Part shown: positions 40,742-57,154 of the stretch, in pieces
Layout of the letters: each line of letters opens with the position of its first letter
How positions within the stretch are numbered: position 1 is the stretch's first letter
The notes under the pieces: generated by a model
The model's database searches: none
What the model saw: only the letters and a program-made list of their open reading frames with translations
What the model was told of the DNA's origin: nothing
NCBI RefSeq assembly: GCF_963675585.1
Contig: NZ_OY776414.1
Location: 3,451,001 to 3,515,000 of the forward strand
DNA length: 64,000 bases
Direction of reading: 5' to 3'
From: an uncultured Draconibacterium sp.
GTDB taxonomy: Bacteria; Bacteroidota; Bacteroidia; Bacteroidales; Prolixibacteraceae
Program-made: the position numbers and the translations under genes

Positions 40742-42136
40742 TTAATCTACGTTGTCGTGCAAGTAACTGTTCCGATCCGAAATATTATTGTTGCGGGTTA
40801 CTGAATACCCCGATTTTTTGCGGTCGTATTTTGGATCGTTCATTCGTATTTGTCTGCGTTTATAAGCAGGAATATTTTCGAGTTCATCCACATCATCGTC
40901 GCTCATGGTCGCATAATCAGTGGCCTTTATCTTTTTTTCAGGCTTGCTTCGTTCCTTTATTGTATTTGGATACAAAACTTCAAAATCATCCTCGTCTTTT
41001 TCAATCTGAATATCAAACTCAAATGTTGTCTGACTTCGTTTTTCCGGATTTTCTCTTTTTTCAGGCGTATTTTGTACTACCTTTTTTCCCGCTTCAATTT
41101 CAGTATCAGTGTCAAGGTTGTGCGTTACCGGCTGTATTTTGCTTTTTTCCGACAACTCGGAGATGATGCTGGTTGGAAAACCGGTGGCAATTACGGTTAC
41201 CGACAAATCATCTTCCAAGGTTTCATCCTTACCATTACCCCAAATTAAATCGGCATCAAATCCGGCTTTGTTTTGTACGTAGTCCGTAATACGTCCCACC
41301 TCATCCATGGTAACTTCAATGTTTCCGGAGGTAATATTCAACAAGATATTTTGTGCTCCGCGAATGTCATTGTCATTTAATAGGGGCGAATTCAAAGCCT
41401 TTTCAACTGCTACTTCAGCACGATTCTCGCCCGAAGCAATTCCGGTTCCCATAATGGCCATTCCACTTTTGCGCATTACGGTTTCCACATCAGCAAAATC
41501 GACATTTATATAACCCGGAACAGTTATAATTTCGGCAATTCCCTTTGCAGCCGTTGCCAATATATTATCGGCTTTGGCAAATGCCTCGGAAATACCAAAG
41601 TCGCCAAACATTTCACGAATACGCTCGTTATTCACAACCAGCAATGAGTCAACAAATGAGGCCAGTTCTTTTATTCCTTCGTAGGCCTGACGAATTCTTC
41701 TGCGTCCTTCGTTCCGAAACGGAATGGTTACAATTGCAACGGTTAAATATCCTAATTCTTTGCAGGTTTTAGCAATTACCGGAGCGGCACCGGTTCCGGT
41801 ACCTCCACCCATTCCGGCAGTAACAAAAACCATTTTTGTGTTTTCGGAAAGTGTGCGTTTTACATCATCGATATTTTCGAGCGCCGCTTCTTTCCCAACT
41901 TCGGGTTTGTTTCCGGCACCTCTTCCTTCTGTAAGTGCCTCACCCAGCTGCACTCGTGTATGAATTGGGCTTGAAGCCATTGCCTGTGCATCGGTGTTGC
42001 AAATTACAAAATCAACATCGCGAATGCCGTGCAAATACATGTGGTTAACAGCGTTTCCTCCGCCGCCACCAACACCTATTACTTTTATCTCTGCGCCAGG
42101 CTTTTTCTCCAATGCAAAGTCTGCCATTTTCTCCAT
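40742..42136 (-). CDS. ftsZ: cell division GTPase FtsZ, canonical copy
   Basis: Tubulin-like GTPase that forms the Z ring at midcell. 464 residues. GTP-binding GGGTGTG at 110-116, T7 synergy loop NVDFAD (Asn211, Asp213, Asp216), and TIPFRNEGRRR. A long acidic linker leads to ENIPAYKRRQIRM (about 422-434), the conserved C-terminal peptide that binds FtsA/ZipA, and the protein ends NSYLHDNVD, as in other Bacteroidota FtsZ. It is the second of two tandem ftsZ genes, 25 bases after the first. All features suggest it is the working division protein. Confidence 0.97.
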   Translation of the reverse strand: MEKMADFALEKKPGAEIKVIGVGGGGGNAVNHMYLHGIRDVDFVICNTDAQAMASSPIHTRVQLGEALTEGRGAGNKPEVGKEAALENIDDVKRTLSENTKMVFVTAGMGGGTGTGAAPVIAKTCKELGYLTVAIVTIPFRNEGRRRIRQAYEGIKELASFVDSLLVVNNERIREMFGDFGISEAFAKADNILATAAKGIAEIITVPGYINVDFADVETVMRKSGMAIMGTGIASGENRAEVAVEKALNSPLLNDNDIRGAQNILLNITSGNIEVTMDEVGRITDYVQNKAGFDADLIWGNGKDETLEDDLSVTVIATGFPTSIISELSEKSKIQPVTHNLDTDTEIEAGKKVVQNTPEKRENPEKRSQTTFEFDIQIEKDEDDFEVLYPNTIKERSKPEKKIKATDYATMSDDDVDELENIPAYKRRQIRMNDPKYDRKKSGYSVTRNNNISDRNSYLHDNVD

Positions 42137-42161
42137 CTTCTATTCCTCTTTGTTTTTTAAC

Positions 42162-43514
42162 TTACTCCAGAGGCTGATCCTCATCGTCACTAAAAATCTT
42201 GCTTCCAAAATTTTTATAAAACCAATTATCGATGTTCGATTCGGCAACCGGTTCATCTTTTTTGGTTTTGGTCTTAGTTGGCTTATCCTTTTTAATCCAC
42301 GATTTCTTTTTTGGTTTTTCAACCACCGTGTTTTTGGGTCGGGTAAACATTATGGTTTCTTCAACTTCAATTTCAGGCTCGGACTGAGCTTCAGATTGCC
42401 GAACAATTAACTCCTCCTCTTCATCATCAGGAGCATATAAATTATCGTTTACCTTGTTTTCAAATGCTTCATGTTTTGCCGGTTCCTCCTCTTCCAAATC
42501 GAAGTTTTGTATTTCCTTTTTGGGTTGAAGTTCCTGATTTGGATTGGTAACAAATCCGGTAGCCAGAATGGTAACACTTATCCTGTCGCCCAAACGTTCG
42601 TCGTATCCGTTACCCCAAATAATATCGGCTTCCTGCCCTGCTTTTTCCTGCAGGGTTTCTATAATTTCGCCAATTTCTCCAATCCGTATCTCTTCGCTTC
42701 CTGAAATAATATTCAGCAAAATATTTTTAGTACCATAAATGTCGTTACTGTCGAGCAGTGGCGATTCGAGAGCCTGATTAACAGCATCCATTGCACGGCC
42801 TTCACCGGTTGCAAAACCGGTTCCCATAATAAACACATCGCTTTTGTGCATAACAGTATGTACATCGGTGTAGTCAATGTTCACATTTCCGTGAACGGTA
42901 ATAATCTCTGCCACTCCTTTTACAGCCGTTGCTACAATATTATCAGCCATTTTAAATGCCTGACTTGCCGGTAAATCACCATAAATATGATGCAGGCGGT
43001 CGTTGCTAATAACCAGCATACTATCAACATACTCGCCCAGTTTCTTCAGACCTGCCTGAGCCTGGTCGTAACGTTTTTTACCCTCAGCACGTGACGGGAT
43101 TGTAACAACCGCAATGGTTAAAATATCCAATTCACGAGCCAGACTGGCAATTACGGGAGCAGCACCGGTTCCGGTACCTCCACCCATTCCTGCTGCAATA
43201 AACAGCATTTTGGTGTTTTCATTCAGGACTTTCTTTAAATCCTCGTAGTTCTCGCGGGCGGCTTCTTCTCCCATTTCGGGTTTATTGCCGGCTCCGCGCC
43301 CTTCTGTAAGCGTTACCCCCAATTGTAGTTTTATGGGTACAGGACTGTTCTCCAACGCCTGGGAATCGGTATTACAAATCATGTAATCAACACCGGTAAT
43401 TCCCTCTTCATACATATGATTGACCGCGTTGCAGCCCCCACCACCTACTCCAACTACTTTAATAATGGAGGACGATGCTTTGGGAAATTCAAAATTTGCT
43501 AAATTTTCGGTCAT
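42162..43514 (-). CDS. FtsZ paralogue, divergent copy without the canonical tail
   Basis: 450 residues with a complete GTPase core: GVGGGGCNAVNHM, GGGTGTG at 111-117, and T7 loop NIDYTD (Asn212, Asp214, Asp217), so GTP binding and hydrolysis should be possible. The PF-x-NEG loop is PSRAEG. The linker is longer and more acidic than in the other copy, and the end (NWFYKNFGSKIFSDDEDQPLE) lacks the PAYxRR-type FtsA/ZipA-binding peptide and the LHDNVD end. It is encoded immediately after ftsA and before the canonical ftsZ, and was probably made by tandem duplication followed by divergence. Its role is unknown: co-polymer partner, regulator or specialised filament. Confidence 0.92.
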   Translation of the reverse strand: MTENLANFEFPKASSSIIKVVGVGGGGCNAVNHMYEEGITGVDYMICNTDSQALENSPVPIKLQLGVTLTEGRGAGNKPEMGEEAARENYEDLKKVLNENTKMLFIAAGMGGGTGTGAAPVIASLARELDILTIAVVTIPSRAEGKKRYDQAQAGLKKLGEYVDSMLVISNDRLHHIYGDLPASQAFKMADNIVATAVKGVAEIITVHGNVNIDYTDVHTVMHKSDVFIMGTGFATGEGRAMDAVNQALESPLLDSNDIYGTKNILLNIISGSEEIRIGEIGEIIETLQEKAGQEADIIWGNGYDERLGDRISVTILATGFVTNPNQELQPKKEIQNFDLEEEEPAKHEAFENKVNDNLYAPDDEEEELIVRQSEAQSEPEIEVEETIMFTRPKNTVVEKPKKKSWIKKDKPTKTKTKKDEPVAESNIDNWFYKNFGSKIFSDDEDQPLE

Positions 43515-43524
43515 ATCGCTTCTT

Positions 43525-44811
43525 TTATTTCAATTCCAAATCTTCACTTCCGTCGTCGAAAAAATTAATGGCACTTTGCAGCGCACCTTTAAAATTTGGG
43601 AAAATACTTTTCCCGCTCCTGCTCTTATTCCCGGGCTCGGGTAAAATCCTAACCGGTGCTTCCACATTTGTCAGCGCCAGTTTTAATGCGCCCAAAGCAG
43701 TGTACATATCGGGGCTTTTTACTTCATCTTTTCGATTAACCGGGTGCACAACAGAATAGGCCATTCGGGCATCCATTCCGGTGTGGTATTTTACAAGTGT
43801 AATTATATTTTCCAAAGATGAAGTTCCGCCGGTTACCACAATACCGGTCCCCAAAAGATCTTTCACACCCGACTTTTCAATTTCAGAATTTACAATCTCA
43901 ACAATTTCCTCCAGTCGCGCCTGTATAATGTAGGCTAAACTTTTTATGGTTATTTCTTTGGGTTCCCAACCGTTATTTTTGGCTATGGTAACTGTATCTT
44001 CGCTTTTAATCTGATCGCCAAGTGCCTGTCCGTATTTTACTTTTAGCAGTTCGGCCTTTTCCATAAAAGTTGCACAACCACATTTTAAATCATTGGTGAT
44101 CACCTCGCCGGCAAAAGGAATAACTGCTGTATGAACCAGTGAATTTTCATAAAAAACGGCAAGGTTGCTTGTTCCGGCCCCCATATCCAACACCACTGTA
44201 CCCATTTCCTTTTCGTGTTTTGGCAATACAGCTTCGGCAATGGCCAGCGACGAATGATATACTTCGCCCAACTCCACTCCAACACTTTCGAAAACACGTT
44301 GCAGGTTGATCAGATCAACTTCCGGAATAACCACTAATTTGTAGCGGGCTTCAATTTTTTTGCCGGTAACACCAACAGGTTTTAATTCCTCTATTTCATC
44401 GTCGCTAACAAACGAAGTAGGTATAACTTTCAGAATTCGGTAGCCACTTTTAAGCTCCACATTTTTGGCTTCGTTGTATAGCTCATCAATGTCGAAATTA
44501 GAAACAACCCCACCCTCGCCGGTAAACCGCGAAGCCTGGTAATTTACTGTTTTCATTTCTTTTCCGGCATACGCCACATCAACCACTTCAATTTCGTCTT
44601 CAAGCTGATCATCCAATAATCCTAAAACTTTGGTAATCGACTCAATTACGTCGGCGAGATTAAAAATAACCCCACGTTTTATTCCCTTTGAAGGTGTTTT
44701 TGCGACACCCAGAATTTCCATTTTACCCAATTCGGTTACGCGTCCTGCAAGGGCTACTAATTTTGATGTTCCTATATCAATAACAACTGAAAGATTTGAT
44801 TTTGAAGCCAT
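43525..44811 (-). CDS. ftsA: cell division protein FtsA
   Basis: Actin-like ATPase, 428 residues, that tethers FtsZ to the membrane. Phosphate 1 motif VVIDIGTSKLVAL (about 9-21), SHS2/1C domain near 80-165, phosphate 2 VVLDMGAGTSNLAVF (about 206-220) and adenosine motif GIVVTGGTSSLENI. The C-terminus (FKGALQSAINFFDDGSEDLELK) fits an amphipathic membrane-binding helix. It sits 2 bases after ftsQ and 10 bases before the divergent ftsZ, within the dcw operon. Confidence 0.95.
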   Translation of the reverse strand: MASKSNLSVVIDIGTSKLVALAGRVTELGKMEILGVAKTPSKGIKRGVIFNLADVIESITKVLGLLDDQLEDEIEVVDVAYAGKEMKTVNYQASRFTGEGGVVSNFDIDELYNEAKNVELKSGYRILKVIPTSFVSDDEIEELKPVGVTGKKIEARYKLVVIPEVDLINLQRVFESVGVELGEVYHSSLAIAEAVLPKHEKEMGTVVLDMGAGTSNLAVFYENSLVHTAVIPFAGEVITNDLKCGCATFMEKAELLKVKYGQALGDQIKSEDTVTIAKNNGWEPKEITIKSLAYIIQARLEEIVEIVNSEIEKSGVKDLLGTGIVVTGGTSSLENIITLVKYHTGMDARMAYSVVHPVNRKDEVKSPDMYTALGALKLALTNVEAPVRILPEPGNKSRSGKSIFPNFKGALQSAINFFDDGSEDLELK

Positions 44812-44813
44812 GA

Positions 44814-45567
44814 TTATCTTCTTTTTGCTATTACCTGATTCTTATATTTTACACTCACTGTTTTGTACTTATTCCAATTGTTGTCGGCCAATACCTGCTT
44901 GTAGAAAGCTTTCATGTTGCGCAGTTTTTCCTCGTAATTATCGAGTTTTCCGAGTTCTATTATATGATCGCCAACCAAAGGAGTAAGTACAACTTCGCCA
45001 TTTTTTTCGACATGCACTTGTTCTATTTGTGCATCCCAAAATTCATCGTTTGCCATAAAAAGCACACAAGGCAGTAATTTTTCACGGGCAAATTTCTCAT
45101 CAAAACGTTCCGGTGCTTACCAAAACATTTGCCGAGTAGTTTGATGAAACCGGTATTTTACCACCAAACTTGTCGAGGTAGTAATTGCTTTCGCCTGACA
45201 TTACGCGCAAAACAGGTTTCCGATGTTTTAAGCGTACCGACAAAACTCCCTGGTACGATGCACTATCAGTTACCGTTACTACTTCATACACTTCTGCCTT
45301 TAACAAAGCATCGTGTTTCTCAACGGCTTGCTCTATTTTTACAGCATTAATCTGGTCAAATTTTTTCCCGATAATTTTTTCATCGGCAGCTTTAACCAAA
45401 GCAATAATTTCACTTTTATCAACCCGGATTAATTCATCCGGTTCGTATTCAACTTCTATACTACGGCAAGTTGCGTTGTTGTACTTAATTGAAGTGAAAG
45501 CCAGTGTTACTATCACAAAAAGTATCAAACCAAAAAATCCTGCTATTTTGCCTAATTTACGTAGCAT
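44814..45567 (-). pseudogene. ftsQ: FtsQ/DivIB-type division protein, one frameshift as read
   Basis: Bitopic inner-membrane divisome protein. N-terminal helix (KIAGFFGLILFVIVTLAF) followed by a POTRA-like region; the frame then stops at 45100 after NVLVSTGTF. Dropping one T from a four-T run (minus strand; 45108-45111 on the plus strand) restores GTFDEKFAREKLLPCVLFMA, after which a continuous frame runs to 44814. The fusion gives about 250 residues, normal for the family. FtsQ is usually essential, so a sequencing or assembly indel is the simplest reading; a +1 slip at TTT TGA cannot be excluded. Confidence 0.85.
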
Positions 45568-45568
45568 T

Positions 45569-46953
45569 TTATTTGTTCTCCAGCAATTGGGTTATTCCGG
45601 GCACCATACGATCTATATCGCCGGCTCCCATGGTTAAAATTATTTCGTTCGAATCGTTTTTAATCAATTCCATCGCTTCTTCCTTTTCTGCCATCACTTT
45701 GGCGTCGATCATCATTTTATCAAAAATGATTTCAGAACTCACGCCGGGAATGGGTTTTTCGCGTGCCGGATAAAGCGGTAAAAGAATTGTTTTATCCAGC
45801 AAATCGAGACTGCTAGCAAATTCGGCAGCGAAATCCTGTGTACGCGAATACAAATGCGGCTGAAAAATGCCGGTCATCTTTTTCCCGGGATACAACGCCC
45901 GCACCGAAGGTTATAAATGCTTTTAACTCTTCGGGATGATGTGCGTAGTCGTCGATGTATATTTTTTCATCCGATTTAAACCGAATATCAAATCTTCGTG
46001 CCACACCCTGATAATCTTCAATTCCGGCTTTTATTTCGTTGGCAGTGGCTCCGGCGAAATGGGCCAAAGCACTTGCTCCAACTGTATTTTCAACATTTAC
46101 TAAACCGGGGTAATTCATTTTACAATTGGCAATTATTCCATCGGGTGTTTTTAAATTGAATCGATAAAAGCCACTTGCCTCATCCAATTTCAGATTTAAA
46201 GCCGAAAAAATCGGCGTCGCCCTGCAAAGCATAAGAGTATATTTCGGCTGAAGTTTTTGTTGTATCCAACTCTACTCCTTTTTTTAGCACGAGTTTGCCA
46301 CCGGCCTTAATTTGCGAAATGTATTTTTCGAATGACTCAACTATCTTCTCTTTTTCGCCATAAATATCCAGATGATCGGCGTCGATTGAAGTAATTAATG
46401 CCAGTTGTGGATTCAGGTGTAAAAACGAACGATCGAACTCGTCAGCTTCAGCAACAATCCATGGCGAATCGGCTTTTGGAAGCAATAAGTTACTTTTGAA
46501 ATTTTTAGAAATTCCTCCTAAAAATGCGCCGCATCCTTTTTCTGTTTTATTTAGAATATTAGCAACAATGGTACTGGTAGTTGTTTTACCGTGCGTTCCG
46601 GCAACACCAATTCCACTTTTTTCGTTGCAAATTAGGCCCAATACTTTCGCGCGTTTAAACAAACCAATGGGCTGCGATTTAAACCAGGCCAGCTCTTCGT
46701 GGTCGTCGGGCAATGCAGGTGTATAAACAGCTATTGTTGTAGCCGGATTCCAATTTCCCGGAATATGTTTAACATCATCTTCAAAATGAACATCAATTCC
46801 TTCTTCCTGCAATGCGTCTGTTAAGGCAGTTTGTGTGCGGTCGTAACCAGCCACATTCCGCCCGGTAAATTTAAAATACCGTGCCAGCGCACTCATCCCA
46901 ATTCCTCCAATTCCGAGGAAATAAACATTCTTTATGTTCTCGATGCTCTTCAT
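45569..46953 (-). pseudogene. murC: UDP-N-acetylmuramate--L-alanine ligase, two frameshifts as read
   Basis: Adds L-Ala to UDP-MurNAc, the first Mur ligase step. The first frame has FLGIGGIGMSALARYF and GVAGTHGKTTTSTIV (P-loop lysine 123). It shifts at 46205-46210 (six-T run on the minus strand; removing one T gives GDADFSALNLKLDEASG) and again at 45907-45908 (removing one T gives AFITSVRALYPGKKMTGIFQ). The repaired protein is about 460 residues, full length, with YIDDYAHHPEELKAF and QPHLYSRTQDF motifs intact. Both changes add one T, as in ftsQ next door. Probable sequence errors, otherwise the gene is dead. Confidence 0.88.
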
Positions 46954-48059
46954 CTTATTAATTTCTCTACTTCGTCAACAATTGTTCGGGTGGCTTCAGG
47001 TTTTGCCAATTCTTTAATTTTACCCGATATAGTTTCGCATTTGCTTTTATCAGCAACTACACTAAAAGCCAATGGAAAAAGTTTATCATCTATTTCGTTG
47101 TCTTTTACCATTAAGGCAGCATCTTTTCCCACCAAAGCCATTGCATTTTTTGTCTGGTGATCTTCCGACACATTTGGCGAAGGCACCAAAACCGATGTTT
47201 TTCCTACCAAACACAATTCCGAAATCGTTCCGGCACCTGCCCTTGAAATAACCAAATCAGCCACTTCGTATGCCAAATCCATCCGATTTATAAATTTATG
47301 GATCTGCAGATTTTCAGGCTTGCTTTCTTTTAGTTCCTCCTGAATGCGATCGAAATAAATGGCTCCGGTTTGCCAAACTACTTTTACTCCCGACGCTGCA
47401 ATTTCTTTTATATTTTTTAGAACAGAATTATTGATAGAACGTGCTCCCAGGCTACCTCCCACTATCAGAATCACTTTTTCGTTTTCACTGAGTGAAAAAT
47501 AATCCAAAGCCTCTTTCCGGTTTTGTTTCTGCGTTAAATTCTCGCGAACCGGATTTCCGGTAAACACAATTTTATCGGCCGGGAAAAATTTCTCCATTTT
47601 ATCGTAGGCCACACAAATTGAATTGACTTTTTTACTCAGCAATTTATTTGTAATTCCGGCATACGAATTTTGCTCCTGAATTAAACACGGAACTTTCTTT
47701 TTTGCGGCCGCACGCAACAAAGGCCCGCTGGCATAACCACCAACACCAATTGCAATTTCGGGCTGAAAGTCTTTTACAATCTTCTTTGCCATCGATGCGC
47801 TTTGCATTAATTTTTGAAAGAACGTAAAAATTTTAAGGCTTGGTTTACGAGGAAAACCCATCACCGGCAAACCTACTATTTCGTATCCGGCTGCCGGAAT
47901 TTTTTCCATTTCCATGCGGCCAAGGGCACCCACAAACAAAATATCTACCTCGGGATTTCGCCTTTTGATTTCGTTTGCAATGGACAAAGCCGGGAAAATA
48001 TGTCCCCCGGTACCACCTCCACTTAATATTACCTTATTTATTTTTTTCTTCATTTTCAA
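46950..48059 (-). CDS. murG: MurG, lipid II-forming N-acetylglucosaminyltransferase
   Basis: Membrane-associated GT-B glycosyltransferase, 369 residues, that adds GlcNAc to lipid I to make lipid II. N-terminal SGGGTGGHIFPALSIANEI with the glycine loop, then GVGGYASGPLLRAAAKKK, EQNSYAG, and the donor-binding GAGTISELCLVGK. The start overlaps ftsW by 26 bases and its end overlaps the murC start by 4 (ATGA), so translation is coupled. Confidence 0.97.
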   Translation of the reverse strand: MKMKKKINKVILSGGGTGGHIFPALSIANEIKRRNPEVDILFVGALGRMEMEKIPAAGYEIVGLPVMGFPRKPSLKIFTFFQKLMQSASMAKKIVKDFQPEIAIGVGGYASGPLLRAAAKKKVPCLIQEQNSYAGITNKLLSKKVNSICVAYDKMEKFFPADKIVFTGNPVRENLTQKQNRKEALDYFSLSENEKVILIVGGSLGARSINNSVLKNIKEIAASGVKVVWQTGAIYFDRIQEELKESKPENLQIHKFINRMDLAYEVADLVISRAGAGTISELCLVGKTSVLVPSPNVSEDHQTKNAMALVGKDAALMVKDNEIDDKLFPLAFSVVADKSKCETISGKIKELAKPEATRTIVDEVEKLIR

Positions 48060-49254
48060 TTTCGTAATCTTCGTCGGGAGCTTTCACCATAAGCGGTTGT
48101 TCCTCCACTTCATGGTTTTTCTGATTCTGGTGACTCACACTTAAAATCAATCCAAAAGCCACCGAAGTAAACAACAAGGATGTTCCGCCCAAACTTATCC
48201 AGGGCAGCGGCTGACCGGTAACCGGCAGTGCTCCGCTCGAAACACCAATATTTATCATGGCCTGGTAAACCAATACCAGGGTTAGCCCAATTACCAGAAA
48301 GGCCGGGAATGTTCGTGTGGCCCGCCGCACGATTGTTACTCCCCTGAAAAAGAAAATCAGGAAAAGTAAAATCACAAAAGTGCCACCGATCAAACCATAT
48401 TCTTCCACTATAATTGCAAAAATAAAATCGTTATATGCAGCTGCCATGTAGTTACTCACATCCGAGTGTCCGGGACCTTTCCCGAATATTCCTCCCGAGT
48501 AAATAGCAAGTTTGGCATAATCGGCCTGGGTTATTCCCTTTTCAGAATTTGGATCGCCGTTAATAAAACGCTCAATACGTCCTTTCATGGTTTGTACGCG
48601 ACCAAGTCCATCGGGTAAGATATCGGCGGTAAAATAAATAACTACAATTAAGGCAATTCCGGCGCCAACCACAGAGAAGAGATACAACAACGGAATTCGT
48701 CCGGCAAACATCATGGTCATTACAGTTGCAAAAAGCAGGGCTGATGTTGAGAAATCGGATATAAAAATAAGACCACAAATTGCACCGGTAAAAAGTATGA
48801 TTCGTTTAAAGGCATCCCACAAATCGCCCCGGGTTTTTTGTCGTTTCCCCAGGATTTTTGCGGTATATAAAATGAGTGAGATTTTTGCAAGCTCAGCCGG
48901 CTGAAAAGTTAAGCCAAAGAAATTAAGTGTTCGTCCGCTACTGGAAACAAACTGGGTTCCTTTCATCGCAACCGAAAAAAGTAAAAAACCAATGCTGGCC
49001 CAAACGGCCCACAATGCGAGTTTTGAGTACAACTTAATTGGGAAAACATTCACCATTAATAAAATTACGCCAATACCTGCGCTTAAAAATCCAACTTGCC
49101 TCAACAAGTATTTAAAGGTATTACCCGAAGCAACGCGATAGGCCAATGCACCAGTTGCACTGTACACAATAAGTAACGACAGCAATGACAACAACATCAA
49201 AACCATCCAGATAACGCGGTCGCCTTTAAATATTTTCCCTATGGAAAGCTCCAT
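48034..49254 (-). CDS. ftsW: FtsW, SEDS-family septal peptidoglycan polymerase
   Basis: 406 residues, 10 helices. SEDS proteins polymerise lipid II with a partner PBP (here FtsI). The SEDS signature HSDVSNYMAAAYNDFIFAIIVEEYG and the final GGTSLLFTSVAFGLILSVSHQN are present. It shares one base with the murD stop and overlaps murG. The C-terminal cytoplasmic tail is charged and disordered. Confidence 0.96.
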   Translation of the reverse strand: MELSIGKIFKGDRVIWMVLMLLSLLSLLIVYSATGALAYRVASGNTFKYLLRQVGFLSAGIGVILLMVNVFPIKLYSKLALWAVWASIGFLLFSVAMKGTQFVSSSGRTLNFFGLTFQPAELAKISLILYTAKILGKRQKTRGDLWDAFKRIILFTGAICGLIFISDFSTSALLFATVMTMMFAGRIPLLYLFSVVGAGIALIVVIYFTADILPDGLGRVQTMKGRIERFINGDPNSEKGITQADYAKLAIYSGGIFGKGPGHSDVSNYMAAAYNDFIFAIIVEEYGLIGGTFVILLFLIFFFRGVTIVRRATRTFPAFLVIGLTLVLVYQAMINIGVSSGALPVTGQPLPWISLGGTSLLFTSVAFGLILSVSHQNQKNHEVEEQPLMVKAPDEDYEIENEEKNK

Positions 49255-50591
49255 TACAAATTTCTTACTTGTTTTTTAAACTGGTTGCCTCTGTCTTCGT
49301 AGTTCTCGAACAAATCGAAACTTGCACAAGCGGGTGAAAGTAACACTGAATCGCCGTTACGTGCGAGGTAATATGCCGCTTTTACCGCTTCTTCCATGCT
49401 GGAGGCATCTACAATATCGGCTACCAAATCGCCAAAAGCTTCGTGCAACTTGGCATTGTTTTTACCCAAACAAACAATTGCTTTTACTTTGTTATTTACC
49501 AGCCCCTGAAGCATCGAATAGTCGTTTCCTTTGTCGACTCCACCGGCAATCCACACAATTGGTTTATGCACACTTTCGAGCGCATACCACGATGAATTAA
49601 CGTTGGTGGCTTTCGAGTCGTTAATAAACTCAATGCCGTGTACTTTCAGAAAGCGCTCCAAACGGTGTTCAACACCAGTAAAATCAGACATACTCTCTCT
49701 CAACTGTTCGTTTCTGATCTCAAACACCATACTCGCAATTCCTGCGGCCATACTGTTGTACGTGTTGTGTTTTCCCTGTAATGATAAATCCAGAATAGAC
49801 ATACTGAATTGGTTTTGATGAAAATTTATAATTATCCGATTCTCGTGTACTCCTGCCCCCGGCTCGGATGCCATTCCTAACCCAAAAGGAATTTGAACAG
49901 GTTTTATCTCTCGTTTACTTAATTCGTTTTTTATCACTTCATCGTCGTCGCAATAAATGAAGTAATCGTTGTTTGTTTGATTTTGAAGAATCCTGAATTT
50001 GGAGTCGATGTAGTTTTGCATATCATAACCGTAACGATCCAAATGATCGGGAGTAATGTTCATTAAAACGGCAACATCTGCTCTAAAATCGTACATCCCG
50101 TCCAACTGAAAACTACTAAGCTCGATCACATACACATCGTGCTCCTCTTCGGCCACCTGCCAGGCAAAACTTTTTCCAACATTTCCGGCCAGCCCCACAT
50201 TAATACCCGCATTTTTCAGAATGTGGTAAGTAAGCAATGTAGTAGTGGTTTTGCCGTTACTTCCGGTTATGCAAATTGTTTTCGCCGAAGAATATCTTCC
50301 GCCAAATTCAATTTCAGAAATAACCGGAATCCCCTTTTCTTTTAACGCAACAATTAGAGGAGCGGTGTCAGGAATACCGGGACTTTTCACCACCAAAACG
50401 GCACTAAGTATTTTCTCTGATGTATGTTTTTCTTCCTCAAAATCAATATTATAATTTGAAAGAACCTCTTTGTATTTTTCTTTTACTTTGCCCATGTCGG
50501 ATACAAAAACATCGTATCCTTTTTTTTGCGCAAGAATGGCTGCTCCAACCCCGCTTTCACCAGCTCCTAATATGGCTACCAACTTTTTCAA
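49254..50591 (-). CDS. murD: UDP-N-acetylmuramoylalanine--D-glutamate ligase
   Basis: Mur ligase, 445 residues, adding D-Glu. ILGAGESGVGAAILAQKKG at the start, ITGSNGKTTTTLLTYHIL P-loop, MNITPDHLDRYG, and the C-terminal DSVLLSPACASFDLFENYEDRGNQF that is specific to MurD. It begins one base after mraY ends. Confidence 0.97.
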   Translation of the reverse strand: MKKLVAILGAGESGVGAAILAQKKGYDVFVSDMGKVKEKYKEVLSNYNIDFEEEKHTSEKILSAVLVVKSPGIPDTAPLIVALKEKGIPVISEIEFGGRYSSAKTICITGSNGKTTTTLLTYHILKNAGINVGLAGNVGKSFAWQVAEEEHDVYVIELSSFQLDGMYDFRADVAVLMNITPDHLDRYGYDMQNYIDSKFRILQNQTNNDYFIYCDDDEVIKNELSKREIKPVQIPFGLGMASEPGAGVHENRIIINFHQNQFSMSILDLSLQGKHNTYNSMAAGIASMVFEIRNEQLRESMSDFTGVEHRLERFLKVHGIEFINDSKATNVNSSWYALESVHKPIVWIAGGVDKGNDYSMLQGLVNNKVKAIVCLGKNNAKLHEAFGDLVADIVDASSMEEAVKAAYYLARNGDSVLLSPACASFDLFENYEDRGNQFKKQVRNL

Positions 50592-50592
50592 C

Positions 50593-51843
50593 TTATCTCA
50601 TTTTTAAAGTTGCGATTGTTACTACTGCCAGAATGATTCCCACAATCCAAAAGCGTGTTACAATTTTTGGTTCAGGAAATCCTTTCTTCTGAAAATGATG
50701 ATGGATGGGACTCATTAAAAACACCCTGCGTCCTTCACCGTATTTCCGTTTTGTATATTTAAACCAGCTCACCTGGATTACAACTGAAAGATTTTCTATC
50801 AGGAAGATTCCGCAAAGCAGCGGTATTAAAATTTCTTTTCGGATGATAATTGCAAAAACAGCCAGAATTCCGCCCAAAGCCAAACTTCCGGTATCGCCCA
50901 TAAAAACCTGTGCAGGAAATGAATTGTACCACAAAAAGCCAACAGTGGCTCCAATAAACGCGGCAATAAAAACGGTTAATTCTCCAATATTTGGGATGTA
51001 CATTATATTCAGGTAATCGGCATAAATGATGTTACCGCTTACGTAAGCTAAAATTCCCAAGGTAGCGCCACTTATTGCTGAAGTTCCTGTGGCCAGGCCA
51101 TCAATTCCATCGGTTAAGTTGGCCGCATTTGAAACTGCAGTTATAATTAAAATAATTGCCAAAGCATAAACCACCCACTTTAACCAGCGCGCTGCATCGC
51201 CTGCAAAAGCTACCAGCCAGCCATAATCAAACTCGTTCGATTTTACAAACGGGATGGTTGTTTTGGTTGATTTAACATCTTCGGTTACAAACTGTGTAAC
51301 TTGTTCGCCGGTTGTTTGATTTGTTGTAATTTCTGTGAGATTATTCCCGTTTTCATCTTGAATGTGCTCACGAACTTTTACATCGTCGCTGATAAAAAGT
51401 GCGGCAGCCACAAACAATCCCAAACTTACCTGACCTAATATTTTAAATTTACCGGCCAGACCTTCTTTGTTTTTCAGGAAAACTTTAATGTAATCGTCGA
51501 TAAAACCGATTAAGCCCAAAAAGGCAGTGGTAATCAGCATCAACAAAATGTAGATGTTATCGAGTTTGGCAAATAACAGTGTTGGAATTATTATGGCCAT
51601 TAAAATGATAATGCCACCCATAGTCGGAGTTCCCTGCTTTTGCATTTGTCCTTCCAAACCAAGGTCGCGCACTTCGTCGCCAATTTGTTTGCGTTGCAAA
51701 ATGCGAATCATTTTTTTCCCAAAAACGGTGGTAATAAAAAGCGACAGAATTATGGCAGCCGCCGAACGGAAAGTAATACCCGGAAGCATTCCAATACCCG
51801 GAATATCATAACCTGCTAATAATTCGTATAACCAGTAAAACAT
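50593..51843 (-). CDS. mraY: phospho-N-acetylmuramoyl-pentapeptide-transferase
   Basis: Integral membrane enzyme, 416 residues, making lipid I from UDP-MurNAc-pentapeptide and undecaprenyl phosphate. GTPTMGG at the start of helix 2-3, FIDDYIKV (catalytic Asp pair), [16 protein letters not shown] and [12 protein letters not shown], and HHHFQKKG near the end. A polar insertion of about 60 residues ([14 protein letters not shown]...[10 protein letters not shown]) lies between helices; similar extra loops occur in other Bacteroidota MraY, so it is not seen as a defect. Confidence 0.96.
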
Positions 51844-51853
51844 AATTCAGTTT

Positions 51854-53311
51854 TTAATCTTCAATTCCAAAACAGTTTTTAATCTCTTCTTTATCGTCGA
51901 AATGATGTTTCACACCATTTACTTCCTGATAGTTTTCGTGTCCTTTTCCGGCAATCAGAATAATATCGCCCGGTTGCGCCAGCATTGCAGCTGTTTTTAT
52001 CGCATCGCGCCGACTTTCAATCGTAAGCACTTTGTTTTTATATTGAGGAGCTACACCGGCCTCCATATCTTTTAGTATCTCTGCCGGATTTTCGGTGCGC
52101 GGATTATCCGAAGTAAGAATCACTTTATCGCTGGCCAGCAAAGCCTCTTTTGCCATTTCCGGACGTTTGGTTTTGTCGCGATCGCCGCCCGCACCAACAA
52201 CAGTTATTACCTGCTCGTTCCGGGTTCTTATTTCAGAAATGGCTGCCAACACATTTTTTAATGCATCGGGTGTGTGCGCATAATCTACAATGGCAAATTT
52301 CCCGTCGAGGCTGCGAATGGTTTCAAACCGGCCCTGCACAGGTTGCAGATTGCTCATAATTGCCAACACTTCATCTTTGTCTTGTTCCAGCTCGAGCGCT
52401 GTTGCATAAACCGCCAACAAATTTGAGGCATTAAACAATCCCACAAAACGCGTCCATATTTCCTGGTTATCGAGATTCAGCAACATTCCATCAAAATGGC
52501 TCTCCATAACTTTGCACCGGTAATCGGCCATGGCACGATTCGAATAGGTCAGTTTTCTGGCTTTTGTATTCTGCATCATTACCAAACCATTTTTATCATC
52601 GATGTTACTCAATGCAAAAGCAGTTTTTGGCAGCGCATCAAAAAATGCTTTTTTCGCTTTAATGTACTCTGCAAAAGTTTTATGGTAATCTAAATGATCG
52701 TGTGTGATATTGGTAAAAATACCTCCGGCATATTCAATTCCCGAAATCCGTTTTTGATGAATGGCGTGCGAGCTAACTTCCATAAAACAGAATTCGCAAC
52801 CTTCGCCAGCCATTTCAGCTAAAAGTTCCTGTATTTTTAATGCATTTGGAGTGGTATGTGATGCGGTTTCCTCGCGTTCGTTTATTTTATACGAAATGGT
52901 TGAAATTAAACCGGCATTGTATCCCTGTAATAAAAATAATTTATGCAGAAGTGTGGCAATACTGGTTTTTCCGTTTGTTCCGGTTACGCCAACCACTTTC
53001 ATTTTTCTTGATGGAAAACCATAAAATGCAGCTGCCAACTCGCCTAAAACTTTATTTGAATCGGCCACCTTTACAAACGCAACATTTTCAGGAAAAGCTG
53101 ACGGCATCTCCTCACAAACCACCACGGCTGCACCTTGTTCAATTGCTTTTTCAATAAATTTATGACCATCAACATGCACACCACGTTGCGCCACAAAAGC
53201 AAAATCCTTCTTCACTTTTCTTGAGTCAAATTCAATTCCCGTGATATCTAAATCAAGTGAACCAACTTGCTCAACACACTCTATATTTCCTAATAAATCC
53301 TGTAACTTCAT
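51854..53311 (-). CDS. murE: MurE Mur ligase, meso-diaminopimelate-adding type
   Basis: Adds the third stem-peptide residue, 485 residues. GVTGTNGKTSIATLLH is the P-loop, ITHDHLDYHKTFAEYIKAKK follows, and TSDNPRTENP contains the DNPR box associated with meso-DAP use. The carbamylated-lysine region and the final GKGHENYQ are present. It lies 21 bases after ftsI and 10 before mraY. Confidence 0.96.
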   Translation of the reverse strand: MKLQDLLGNIECVEQVGSLDLDITGIEFDSRKVKKDFAFVAQRGVHVDGHKFIEKAIEQGAAVVVCEEMPSAFPENVAFVKVADSNKVLGELAAAFYGFPSRKMKVVGVTGTNGKTSIATLLHKLFLLQGYNAGLISTISYKINEREETASHTTPNALKIQELLAEMAGEGCEFCFMEVSSHAIHQKRISGIEYAGGIFTNITHDHLDYHKTFAEYIKAKKAFFDALPKTAFALSNIDDKNGLVMMQNTKARKLTYSNRAMADYRCKVMESHFDGMLLNLDNQEIWTRFVGLFNASNLLAVYATALELEQDKDEVLAIMSNLQPVQGRFETIRSLDGKFAIVDYAHTPDALKNVLAAISEIRTRNEQVITVVGAGGDRDKTKRPEMAKEALLASDKVILTSDNPRTENPAEILKDMEAGVAPQYKNKVLTIESRRDAIKTAAMLAQPGDIILIAGKGHENYQEVNGVKHHFDDKEEIKNCFGIED

Positions 53312-53332
53312 TTCACCCTTGTTTCTTTCACA

Positions 53333-55429
53333 TTAATTGAGTGCGAGATAAACCGTTTGCCCCGGCCGGTATTTACTCCCCGGCGGCAAGGATTGTTTAT
53401 TTACTTTTCCAACTCCGTTCAGTTTTACCTTTAACCCGGCATTTTCCATTAAATAAATGGCATTGCTGGCTCCCATTCCACGAACATCGGGAACAGTTCC
53501 GGCCGGTATTTCTTTTTCGCTTAGCAGCACTTTATTTTCGGCAATTGTTACCGTTGCCAGTTTCGATGCGGGTCGCCCTTCAACATTCTGAAGATTTAAC
53601 TCTTCGGCCAATTCCAAAATGTCTTCCGACAAACCCGGTTTAATTGAAGGAGTTGCCTCGTATTCGTTTTCCTCTTCTTCTATTCCACCTTTTAATGCCT
53701 GACCGGCAAAAACCTTCTCCGAAATTTCCTTAAAAACCGGACCTGCCACAGCAGCACCGTAAATTGAATTCCGGGGACGTTTAAAAGTTACTATCAACGA
53801 ATACATAGGATCGTCAGCCGGGAAATACCCCACAAACGACGCATAATACGCACCCGGAACATAACCGGCACCGTCTTCGCGGGCAACACGCGCCGTTCCT
53901 GTTTTTCCGGCCACTTTAAAGTGTTTTCCCTGAACACCACGGCCAGTACCGTTTTGACAAACACCTTCGAGCATGGCCTGCGCTTTCGAAATGGTTTCCT
54001 TCGAAGCGATCATCGGATTTATGTATTCGGTTTTATATTTTCGTACCAAAGCACCGTTGTCGCGAATTTCTTTCACCAACTGCGGTTTTACCATTTTCCC
54101 GTCGTTGGCAACGGCATTGTAAAAATTAAGTACCTGAAGTGGCGTTAATCTCAAATCGTAGCCATACGACATACGACCAAGTGTTGTTCCCCACCAATCG
54201 GCATTGCCGGGATATTTAATGTATGGCTGTCCTTCGCCGGGCAATTCCAATCCCAATGGCTTGTGAATTCCAAAACTGTATACACGATCTACATAATCTT
54301 TTGGATTGTTTTTGTATTTGGAGAGAATCACTTTTGCCGTTCCGATATTCGACGACTGCTCTAAAATCTGCTTCACATTTACTTTTCCGCAGGCATGATC
54401 GTCGTATATTTTTTCAGCGGCCCAAAATCCGTTTCCGGTATCAAAAACATCGCTTGTATCTACAACACCATCTTCCAGTGCCACCATTAACGAAACCAAC
54501 TTAAATGTCGATCCGGGTTCGTAACACCCCCGGTAACCCAGAGCATAGTTATCACTTTCGCCAAATCCCTCCTTGGTCATTCCCAGGTTTGCGATGGCTT
54601 TTATTTCGCCGGTTTTAACTTCCATTAAAACAGCGGTCGCCCATTCCGGATTCGATTTTACTGCCTGATTGTAAAGAGCGCTTTCGGTAATATCCTGCAT
54701 CTTTACATCAATGGTTGTAATAATATCCATCCCGTTTTCAGGCTCAATTTCGGTGCGGGTGATCCAGCGTCCGGCCACATTTTGTTTGTAGCTAATTCCA
54801 TCTTCACCACGCAAATACATTTCATACGCACGCTCTAAACCATTGTGCCCAATCGGAACCTGAGTTAAAGCACCGGCTTTATTCATTCCTCCAATTGTGC
54901 GGGCCGCCAGAATTCCAAGCGGATTTATACGTTGGTTCTCCTGTTCAATAATCATCCCGCCACCAAAACGTCCGCGACGAAGAATCGGGAATTTTTTAAA
55001 CTGCTGAAGTTCGGCATAATCGATTTTGCCCGGAGTTAATAACAAACCACGGTTTCCGGTATTGTAAGCCGAACGCAATTTGCGTTTGTATTCGTTTTTT
55101 GAAGCGTCTTTGTAAAAGGCCGACAAATAATACGCCAGCGAATCGCATTCCTGATCGAAAACCCGCTTAACACCTTCCGATGCCAAATCGATCCGCACTT
55201 TGTATCCGGGCACCGAAGTGGCCAGCACACTGCCGTCGGTGGCACAAATTGTTCCCCGAACCGGTGGTACAATTACAGTATTGTTGCTCAGGTTTGCCTC
55301 AATTTCTTCCCAGCGATCGTTTTTTATTTGCTGAACAGAAACCATTTTAAACACAACCACTACTCCGAACAAAAAAAGTACGAAGTACACAATTGCAATA
55401 CGCGACAATATGGTTTTACGAATTCCCAC
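53333..55429 (-). CDS. ftsI: FtsI/PBP3-type transpeptidase with C-terminal PASTA domain
   Basis: Septal class B penicillin-binding protein, 698 residues. One N-terminal membrane helix (IAIVYFVLFLFGVVVVFKM), dimerisation region, and a transpeptidase domain with SxxK (Ser307 in PGSTFKLV), SxN (SSN at 359-361) and KTG (GKTGTARV, about 507). A PASTA domain of about 65 residues (VPDVRGMGASNAIYLMENAG...LPPGSKYRPGQTVYLALN) ends the protein. Its partner FtsW is in the same operon. Confidence 0.95.
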   Translation of the reverse strand: MGIRKTILSRIAIVYFVLFLFGVVVVFKMVSVQQIKNDRWEEIEANLSNNTVIVPPVRGTICATDGSVLATSVPGYKVRIDLASEGVKRVFDQECDSLAYYLSAFYKDASKNEYKRKLRSAYNTGNRGLLLTPGKIDYAELQQFKKFPILRRGRFGGGMIIEQENQRINPLGILAARTIGGMNKAGALTQVPIGHNGLERAYEMYLRGEDGISYKQNVAGRWITRTEIEPENGMDIITTIDVKMQDITESALYNQAVKSNPEWATAVLMEVKTGEIKAIANLGMTKEGFGESDNYALGYRGCYEPGSTFKLVSLMVALEDGVVDTSDVFDTGNGFWAAEKIYDDHACGKVNVKQILEQSSNIGTAKVILSKYKNNPKDYVDRVYSFGIHKPLGLELPGEGQPYIKYPGNADWWGTTLGRMSYGYDLRLTPLQVLNFYNAVANDGKMVKPQLVKEIRDNGALVRKYKTEYINPMIASKETISKAQAMLEGVCQNGTGRGVQGKHFKVAGKTGTARVAREDGAGYVPGAYYASFVGYFPADDPMYSLIVTFKRPRNSIYGAAVAGPVFKEISEKVFAGQALKGGIEEEENEYEATPSIKPGLSEDILELAEELNLQNVEGRPASKLATVTIAENKVLLSEKEIPAGTVPDVRGMGASNAIYLMENAGLKVKLNGVGKVNKQSLPPGSKYRPGQTVYLALN

Positions 55430-55435
55430 TCTTTA

Positions 55436-55783
55436 TTAATCTACTTCAATTATCAATTTTTGCGGAGGTTTTACAGGCTCTTCCAAACCAATGTGCGCCT
55501 CCTCAACTTTTTTTGCTACTTCAGAAGGACGACTTGCATCCATCAGCTTTGCCGATAAAGTAATCGACTCCGAACGCAGCTCATCCAGTTCTTCCTGCAG
55601 AACTTGTATCTCTCGAATTGTACTGCCCGACCAGTTTCGGTTGGCAATAAGCAATATCCCCAAAAAGGCCAGAAACAAAACAAATGGCAGCTGACGCGTA
55701 ATACGATCGTCAGTAAGAATGGTGCCGCCAATAAACGACTTCATTCCGGTTCGTTTTTTTGTATTTTTTGCTTGTTCTGCCAT
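55436..55783 (-). CDS. FtsL-like division protein
   Basis: 115 residues: basic N-terminus, one membrane helix (LPFVLFLAFLGILLIANRNW, about 34-53) and a coiled-coil stretch (IREIQVLQEELDELRSESIT). Sequence is poorly conserved, as usual for FtsL, so assignment rests on topology and position between rsmH and ftsI. It would form FtsQLB-like contacts. The gene begins 1 base after rsmH ends. Confidence 0.85.
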   Translation of the reverse strand: MAEQAKNTKKRTGMKSFIGGTILTDDRITRQLPFVLFLAFLGILLIANRNWSGSTIREIQVLQEELDELRSESITLSAKLMDASRPSEVAKKVEEAHIGLEEPVKPPQKLIIEVD

Positions 55784-55784
55784 T

Positions 55785-56687
55785 TCAGATTTTTTCTGCT
55801 ATTCTAAGTTTTGCACTTCTCGAACGTGGATTTGCCACCAACTCCTCTTTGCCCGGCACTATTACTTTTCGGTTAATCAGTTTAAACGGCGATGTTACAT
55901 TCCCGTAAAAATCTTTGTCCACTTTGCCTTCGAAATTTCCTGCCCGCATAAAATTTTTACACAGGCGGTCTTCCAAACTGTGGTAAGTAATTATCACCAG
56001 GCGCCCACCCGGTTTTAAAAGATCAAGCGAAGCCTCCAGAAACTCTTTCAACACATCCATTTCTTCGTTAACTTCAATCCGAAGTGCCTGAAACACTTGT
56101 GCCAGGTATTTATTTTCGGTTGCCTTTGGCGAGCAAACCGAAGCAATTTCTTTTAGTTGTGTGGTAGTTTTAATGGGCTGACTGTTCCTATATTTAACAA
56201 TTTCAGAAACTAATCGACCGGCATTTTTTATTTCGCCGTACATCCTGAAAATGTTTCGCAACTGATCCTCTGAATATTCGTTTACCACCTTTGCCGCATC
56301 GGTCACTGCATCCTGATTCATGCGCATATCAAGTTTTCCATCAAAACGAAATGAAAAACCACGCTCCGGCACATCAAAATCGTGCGACGAAACACCAAGG
56401 TCTGCAAAAACAGAATCCACCTGATTTACACCGTAAAAGCGCAGGAAATTCTTTGCGTAACGAAAATTATGTCTTATAAAAAAAAGCCGGTCATCCTCTA
56501 TGGCATTCCCGGCAGCATCTTCGTCCTGATCAAAGGCAAAAAGTCTGCCTCCTGTTAAATGGTCGAGAATAAGCCGGGAGTGTCCTCCTCCACCAAAGGT
56601 TGCATCTACAATATCATGGTTCTTCTTTATATCGAGTGCCTGAATACTTTCCGTGGCTAAAACCGGTATGTGATAAGCTTCCGTCAT
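55785..56687 (-). CDS. rsmH: 16S rRNA (cytosine1402-N4)-methyltransferase
   Basis: SAM-dependent rRNA methyltransferase, 300 residues. HIPVLATESIQALDI at the start, motif I DATFGGGGHSRLILDHL, motif IV ADLGVSSHDFDVPERGFSFRFDGKLDMRM and GRLVIITYHSLEDRLCKNFM. N-terminus overlaps the mraZ stop by one base (TAATG). It belongs to the dcw operon in most bacteria. Confidence 0.97.
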   Translation of the reverse strand: MTEAYHIPVLATESIQALDIKKNHDIVDATFGGGGHSRLILDHLTGGRLFAFDQDEDAAGNAIEDDRLFFIRHNFRYAKNFLRFYGVNQVDSVFADLGVSSHDFDVPERGFSFRFDGKLDMRMNQDAVTDAAKVVNEYSEDQLRNIFRMYGEIKNAGRLVSEIVKYRNSQPIKTTTQLKEIASVCSPKATENKYLAQVFQALRIEVNEEMDVLKEFLEASLDLLKPGGRLVIITYHSLEDRLCKNFMRAGNFEGKVDKDFYGNVTSPFKLINRKVIVPGKEELVANPRSRSAKLRIAEKI

Positions 56688-57154
56688 TACTGCTCCTTTT
56701 GTTTTTTTCTTTCGTTTAGCCTTTTCAACTTCTCTAAATACTCGGCATCAGAAACTTTGCGTCGTTCCTCTCTCTCCTCAGACGACAAACGAATTGAATT
56801 ACGCATTCCCTTAAATACCACTTTACCTACCAAACCGGCATACTCCAACAATTCTCCCGGAATATTTATCCGACCATTTGCCGCAACAGGAACTGTTACA
56901 AAATTGTCGAAATAGTCATCCATCAGTTCGTCATCTTCCGGATCGGTCCCGGGATTCAAATCTTTGGTAAATTCTTCCACATCTTTTTCCCAGGCTTCAA
57001 CAGTATGAATGTCGACACACCTGGTTCGGCGGTTTTGCTCAAGCACAACAAATTCGAGTTTCATCTCTCCCATTGCTTTCTTAAAAGCGGCCGGGAGGAC
57101 AACTCTTCCTTTGTCGTCGATTGTTCCTTTGTATTTGCCTGCAAAAATTGCCAT
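56687..57154 (-). CDS. mraZ: transcriptional regulator MraZ
   Basis: 155 residues with two AbrB/SpoVT-like halves: DDKGRVVLPAAFKKAMG and AANGRINIPGELLEYAGL. MraZ binds direct repeats upstream of its own gene and represses the dcw operon in the bacteria studied. A matching repeat array lies at 57198-57232. A lysine-rich, partly helical tail (ERRKVSDAEYLEKLKRLNERKKQ) follows the second half. Confidence 0.96.
   Translation of the reverse strand: MAIFAGKYKGTIDDKGRVVLPAAFKKAMGEMKLEFVVLEQNRRTRCVDIHTVEAWEKDVEEFTKDLNPGTDPEDDELMDDYFDNFVTVPVAANGRINIPGELLEYAGLVGKVVFKGMRNSIRLSSEEREERRKVSDAEYLEKLKRLNERKKQKEQ

Follow-up and report, generated by a model that had tools for sequence, protein, structure and literature searches.

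A tandem FtsZ pair of Prolixibacteraceae in which one paralogue carries an FtsA-like tail in place of the canonical C-terminal peptide

Research on bacterial division has yet to settle how FtsZ filaments attach to the membrane and why more than one tether exists. In Odinarchaeota, one of two FtsZ paralogues is tethered directly by an amphipathic helix and the other through an adaptor (PMC12583498; cited here, like the papers below, from excerpts). Chloroplasts likewise possess a paralogue, FtsZ1, without the adaptor-binding C-terminus (PMC5471200), and, according to a citation in PMC12583498, Arabidopsis FtsZ1 binds the membrane directly by its C-terminus. FtsZ-YFP-mts chimeras, in which a C-terminal membrane-targeting sequence (MTS) is added to the FtsZ core, form filaments on membranes without FtsA or ZipA; the MTS of Escherichia coli FtsA gave about sixfold more membrane coating than that of MinD, with slower treadmilling and vortices that turned more slowly (PMC7320174). 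Here we describe a tandem pair of ftsZ genes, ftsZ-A and ftsZ-B, in a 64,000-nucleotide stretch of DNA (the window) from an uncultured marine Draconibacterium sp. of the family Prolixibacteraceae (contig NZ_OY776414.1). FtsZ-A ends in a conserved hydrophobic tail that resembles FtsA C-termini and replaces the canonical C-terminal peptide (CTP), which FtsZ-B retains.

The pair appears to be a variant of the two-FtsZ systems, in which one paralogue is bound through an adaptor and the other is tethered in a different way, because it shares its logic with the odinarchaeal and chloroplast pairs and no prior account was found: among the titles and abstract openings listed by full-text searches of one open-access library (subscription papers and preprints being outside the search), none dealt with tandem ftsZ of Bacteroidales, and the excerpt of PMC9871819 mentions Bacteroidota for tree placement only. 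The systems differ either in where the anchor lies or in the adaptor. The odinarchaeal pair is archaeal, stems from an ancient duplication, and uses an N-terminal helix and the adaptor SepF instead of FtsA; its direct tethering was shown biochemically (PMC12583498), whereas that of FtsZ-A is proposed here from sequence comparison. The chloroplast pair acts in eukaryotic plastid division and has the adaptor ARC6 (PMC5471200). FtsZ-A resembles a natural version of the laboratory chimeras; however, these are artificial, whereas the tail of FtsZ-A apparently evolved, in a paralogue standing beside an unmodified FtsZ and FtsA. Mycoplasmas are wall-less bacteria. Their FtsZ also has a terminal putative MTS (Dutta et al. 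2025, as cited in PMC12583498), but, according to the excerpt of PMC12583498, it is apparently not paired with a CTP-bearing FtsZ. The single FtsZ of other Bacteroidales has the CTP and the YLHDNVD-type end in common with FtsZ-B, whereas FtsZ-A has neither.

The ftsA-proximal gene ftsZ-A (42162..43514, minus strand, 450 amino acids) and the distal gene ftsZ-B (40742..42136, minus strand, 464 amino acids) are open reading frames (ORFs) without internal stops. Both score above the cut-off of the NCBIfam ftsZ equivalog TIGR00065 (353 and 363 bits, respectively, versus 295), and their products share 51% identity across the 427 columns of an alignment. No other gene of the genome matches the Pfam tubulin/FtsZ model. 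An earlier note, made from the window alone, had described two divergent, tandem ftsZ genes; the ORFs, family scores, and identity bear this out, and both genes are intact. The note had also reported the GGGTGTG loop, which binds GTP, and the acidic residues of the T7 loop, whose Asp residues are catalytic, in both copies. These elements are invariant in 34 aligned FtsZ-A sequences (the window and 33 of the 40 named loci, alignment A1) and in 21 of FtsZ-B (alignment A2, with 20 of the 38 named loci). The preceding gene, ftsA (43525..44811, minus strand; TIGR01174, 271 bits), encodes a protein that ends in a hydrophobic segment capped by acidic residues. It is separated from ftsZ-A by 10 bases, and ftsZ-A from ftsZ-B by 25 bases, so the three genes are likely on one transcript. 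A scan for promoters and terminators was uninformative, with 12 promoter-like sites versus 9.6 expected and 9 terminator-like sites versus 4.9.

FtsZ-A is composed of a tubulin/FtsZ GTPase core (approximately residues 14–322), a hypervariable charged linker (residues 323–428; 42231..42548, minus strand), its variability seen in the alignment and in the proportion of nonsynonymous differences (pN), and a conserved FtsA-like tail formed by the last 22 residues, from D429 to the end (DNWFYKNFGSKIFSDDEDQPLE; 42165..42230, minus strand). Residues D429, W431, F432, F436, F441, and D446 are invariant in the 34 aligned sequences, so that the terminal peptide follows the pattern D-x-W-F-x-x-x-F...F...D; the linker before it is barely alignable. 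As the earlier note had stated, and as the ORFs confirm, FtsZ-B has the motifs PAYKRR and LHDNVD and FtsZ-A has neither. The note's description of the first-copy linker as longer also holds (106 versus 91 amino acids as cut), but in net terms it is only slightly more acidic (27 D/E and 18 K/R versus 21 and 15). The claim that the first copy has no tail does not stand, as the invariant tail residues and the feature test and FtsA-trained motif described below rule it out: a different, FtsA-like tail takes the place of the CTP.

This exchange was followed in 62 FtsZ-A tails from 40 named and 22 unnamed family loci, some of the latter possibly duplicating a named species; other short family loci (among L001–L062) were excluded, and L099 was kept out as single-copy. 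A CTP expression matched one of the 62 (L159, within the linker) and not the window copy, and the YLHDNVD-like end motif was found in none. FtsZ-B, counted in 58 sequences because ORFs cut by contig ends were excluded, has a CTP of the PAYxRR type in 56 and a YLHDNVD-type end in 57, compared with 30 and 26 of 34 single-copy Bacteroidales FtsZ. FtsZ-B of the window is of the ancestral-like type, and its second motif NSYLHDNVD (40745–40771, minus strand), downstream of the CTP, is common to many Bacteroidales FtsZ. AlphaFold2 models contain helices around the CTP of FtsZ-B and, beyond residue 322 of FtsZ-A, a single helix of at least four residues (429–436), predicted with low confidence.

The distribution of the pair was surveyed with FtsZ-A as the query and a match threshold of E≤1e-80. 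Prolixibacteraceae (f1) were assigned by named relatives, and other families carry survey labels such as f23 and f32. In 140 family genomes, including the source genome, from 23 genera, two ftsZ matches were present in 131, one in three, and none in six, with two-copy genomes in all 23 sampled genera. In each of the three one-match genomes (79–91% complete) the match sits at a contig end; G035 is one of these, and its contig holds the final 120 residues of an FtsZ-A with the same tail and then stops. The six remaining genomes contain no ftsZ match whatsoever. Because even the FtsZ-B copy is absent from them, and because a renewed search with the Pfam model of two that scored 95–97% complete again found no ftsZ, gaps in the draft assemblies are the likely cause.

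Most families in an order-wide survey of 392 genomes have a single ftsZ. Outside Prolixibacteraceae, coordinates place copies next to each other in all sampled genomes of f23 (6/6), f100 (5/5), f32 (3/3), f67 (1/1), f81 (1/1), and f16 (1/1), and in one of six genomes of f87. Among genomes with multiple matches outside f1, a renewed search covered 46 and then the remaining five (G057, G260, G296, G307, and G421), in which the second matches were weak or fragmentary. In a phylum sample of 247 genomes, including the source genome, the other 26 multi-match genomes were re-searched, and none has two strong adjacent matches. Three genomes of family f129 (G587, G602, and G728) have a second strong ftsZ copy far from the main one, and other Bacteroidota contain many weaker, distant tubulin-family matches of 54–113 bits.

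Five or six further Bacteroidales families have a similar pattern of tandem genes and tails. The ftsA-proximal copies of f23, f32, f67, f100, and f16 lack a CTP and have a hydrophobic end, usually followed by acidic residues; the distal copies of the other tandem families retain the CTP in 16 of 17 cases. Families f32 (L136, L137, L138) and f67 (L139) have three tandem ftsZ genes after ftsA, with a CTP in the third alone, and their first two copies end in differing hydrophobic tails, such as LQKMIKFFDDDVD and WIQTTFDSLF of L138. The second copies of the five f100 genomes (L141–L145) are short, with 373–387 amino acids, and stop right past the CTP; FtsA of these genomes scores low against that of the window (82–98 bits).

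FtsA binds the membrane through an amphipathic helix at its C-terminus (PMC12583498), and FtsA C-termini in the sampled bacteria consist of a hydrophobic segment and an acidic cap. A feature test for a hydrophobic 12-mer with an acidic cap, the cut-offs of which were chosen after the tails had been inspected, was positive in 62/62 FtsZ-A tails and 18/21 other ftsA-proximal tails, and in FtsA from the family (56/61) and from single-ftsZ families (29/34). Positives elsewhere amounted to 3/58 for FtsZ-B, 0/17 for distal copies, 4/34 for single copies, and 11/62 for FtsZ-A linkers. As a fairer test, a 14-residue motif was learned by expectation maximization from FtsA tails alone, and a sequence was scored positive at p≤0.05 against its own shuffles. 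Identical tails were counted once in the final motif test, and each time in the feature test, the hydrophobic-moment test, and the first motif run. The motif from all 94 distinct FtsA tails recognised 33 of 59 distinct FtsZ-A tails and 16 of 21 other proximal tails, as compared with 1/54 FtsZ-B, 1/17 distal, and 2/34 single copies and 3/58 FtsZ-A linkers. When learned from the 34 FtsA tails of single-ftsZ families, it recognised 31/59 FtsZ-A and 13/21 other proximal tails, none of the FtsZ-B (0/54), distal (0/17), or single (0/34) tails (0/105 together), and 4/58 FtsZ-A linkers. Since the same out-of-family motif recognised 29/60 of the family's own FtsA, FtsZ-A tails look as FtsA-like as these under this model. 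At the level of the family, the terminal segment of FtsZ-A resembles an established MTS, that of the FtsA C-termini.

The hydrophobic moment separates the group means (FtsZ-A 0.51, other proximal 0.50, FtsZ-B 0.37, other distal 0.22, single 0.30, FtsA 0.56 and 0.65) and is weak for individual FtsZ-A tails. The FtsA controls exceeded their shuffles in 24/61 tails from the family and 30/34 from single-ftsZ families.

Both paralogues are under purifying selection. The ratio of nonsynonymous to synonymous substitution rates (dN/dS), calculated by the NG86 method for nine pairs of relatives, is 0.00–0.05 in the core of FtsZ-A and 0.015–0.08 in that of FtsZ-B, for which dS was computable in eight pairs. 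In FtsZ-A, pN of the last 25 residues is 0.00–0.09 versus 0.01–0.31 in the linker. In a 127-row tree, FtsZ-A and FtsZ-B, each sampled with 26 rows, each form a clade of their own, with a Shimodaira–Hasegawa-like approximate likelihood ratio test (SH-aLRT) support of 100 and 95, respectively. With an outgroup of three alphaproteobacterial rows, this tree, which has no archaeal or plastid rows, places FtsZ-A among Bacteroidales FtsZ. Six core positions are fixed or nearly fixed differently between the paralogues, and because most single-copy FtsZ have the FtsZ-B state at V136, V198, I213 (T7 loop), and D255, FtsZ-A is the derived copy, by this comparison, at these four. The earlier note had held that its view would fail if the first copy were unique to this genome, under relaxed selection, or an assembly artefact, and had proposed phylogeny of the tail-less copies as a check; the occurrence across the family, the low core ratios, and the single clade speak against each of these outcomes. 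A specialised partner role is supported by the conservation, the clade, and dN/dS; simple loss of the tail is not, as the CTP has been replaced.

In the 127-row tree, the backbone of which has weak support, copies with hydrophobic tails stand in separate places, namely those of f1, f23, f32/f67 (two sets), and f100. An approximately unbiased (AU) test on a 64-row tree did not reject a constraint holding 24 hydrophobic-tailed rows together (p=0.27; L134 of f16, L151, and f81 copy 1 were left out). The likelihood was above that of the free quick tree when family FtsZ-A and FtsZ-B were constrained together (p=0.83), and likewise for FtsZ-A with f23 copy 1 (p=0.53). The AU tests are compatible with a single old duplication as well as with several younger ones. 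Both copies of the two-copy genome L134 have extremely long branches, of 2.6–2.8 changes per column, which suggests that they are evolving very fast.

The replacement of the CTP by a conserved, FtsA-like hydrophobic tail suggests a role in self-tethering rather than that of a passive co-polymer subunit or regulator. We consider it fairly probable that FtsZ-A is held at the membrane by an FtsA-like anchor of its own and that FtsZ-B is attached via FtsA. The two proteins would be specialised subunits of one division ring. FtsZ-B would keep the ancestral design, in which the GTPase core is joined by a flexible linker to a CTP that docks on FtsA. FtsZ-A would have retained the core and exchanged the CTP for a short stretch of aromatic and hydrophobic residues with an acidic cap, the type found at the end of Bacteroidales FtsA; its insertion into the inner leaflet would hold a filament at the membrane without FtsA. 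FtsA is the sole known membrane adaptor of FtsZ-B identifiable here, because the search of the genome, which covered SepF, gave no SepF match (control genomes were positive in 7/14), and a ZapA match is present. If the two copies form joint or adjacent polymers, membrane affinity and treadmilling speed would be set by how many subunits are self-tethered relative to those tethered by FtsA. Membrane binding, co-assembly, and the tuning of dynamics are the steps that we infer. The natural pair, which extends across the family to named isolates (Draconibacterium, Maribellus, Mariniphaga) and parallels the archaeal and chloroplast systems, offers a test of whether direct and adaptor-mediated tethering can replace one another and whether treadmilling and constriction are set by the ratio of the two. 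A broader reading, in which FtsA-type-anchored FtsZ arose naturally several times within Bacteroidales, in ftsA-proximal copies of tandem arrays of up to three ftsZ, and the Z-ring is a mixed polymer tuned by the same ratio, is possible and is put forward tentatively.

Several observations weigh against self-tethering. The tail of the window itself is marginal under the motif from all FtsA (p=0.042) and not significant under the out-of-family motif (p=0.17), and it is not significantly amphipathic (hydrophobic moment 0.37, p=0.38 against shuffles). The moment exceeds that of the shuffles in just 21/62 FtsZ-A and 3/21 other proximal tails. The predicted helix has a predicted local distance difference test score of about 50, lower still for residues 429–432. 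In the pair of the window and Draconibacterium aestuarii (L097), dN/dS of the tail (0.175) is not below that of the linker (0.148), which is due to the small number of synonymous changes in the tail. Poor fits to the tail pattern are f67 copy 2, f81 copy 1, which fits loosely, one f100 tail, and f87 (L149), which shows no tail switch and is still counted among the other proximal copies. Finally, the strong conservation of W, F, F, F, and D residues within the family is also compatible with a motif that docks on a partner protein. In this alternative, the tail would be a short linear motif with a protein as its docking site (FtsA, a different component of the divisome, or the core of FtsZ) in place of lipid, and FtsZ-A would recruit a partner out of reach of FtsZ-B. 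The six invariant positions and the weak amphipathicity of many family tails favour such docking. However, the tails of the other tandem families vary in residues and keep the hydrophobic and acidic pattern, and the FtsA-trained motif recognises both these and the family tails; lipid binding fits better than one specific pocket for these reasons, and we regard protein docking as rather unlikely.

It is improbable that FtsZ-A is a co-polymer or regulatory subunit, as the earlier note had proposed, with its specialisation in the core and a minor contribution of the tail. The fixed core differences, with FtsZ-A derived at four of them, agree with this explanation, as does a precedent from chloroplasts, where FtsZ1 has no anchor-binding C-terminus and alters FtsZ2 filaments (PMC5471200). 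An unimportant tail would drift, however, and the amino acids of the FtsZ-A tail are far more constrained than those of the linker before it. A redundant or dosage duplicate, or an artefact of assembly, is very improbable, even though an apparent double frameshift in murC of the window makes local sequence errors possible. The copies are only half identical, dN/dS of both cores is ≤0.08 where computable, and pairs occur in all sampled genera of the family, with isolates among the named records. Together with the checks at contig ends, these results rule out an assembly artefact or a decaying duplicate.

The window covers the minus-strand dcw (division and cell wall) cluster of a 6.03 Mb genome. 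The nearest named relative in the scan is D. aestuarii, with 90% identity in FtsZ-A; others belong to Draconibacterium, Maribellus, Mariniphaga, and Tangfeifania, or are metagenome-assembled genomes named 'Prolixibacteraceae'. The remainder of the cluster (45100..57154, minus strand) was annotated from an NCBIfam scan, ORFs, and position. In the order of transcription, the genes are mraZ-like, rsmH, a small ORF at the ftsL position, a penicillin-binding protein (PBP)/ftsI-like gene, murE, mraY, murD, an ftsW-like gene, murG, a split murC, and an ORF at the ftsQ position, followed by ftsA, ftsZ-A, and ftsZ-B. The labels ftsL and ftsQ are given by position alone, the ORF at the ftsQ position having no NCBIfam match, and the matches of mraZ, PBP, and ftsW are below their curated cut-offs. 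murC (45569–46953, minus strand), labelled by comparison with D. aestuarii and by position, is spread over three different frames, whereas D. aestuarii has a single ORF of 467 codons from stop to stop. The frame breaks are probably indel errors in the assembly; failing that, an essential gene is broken here.

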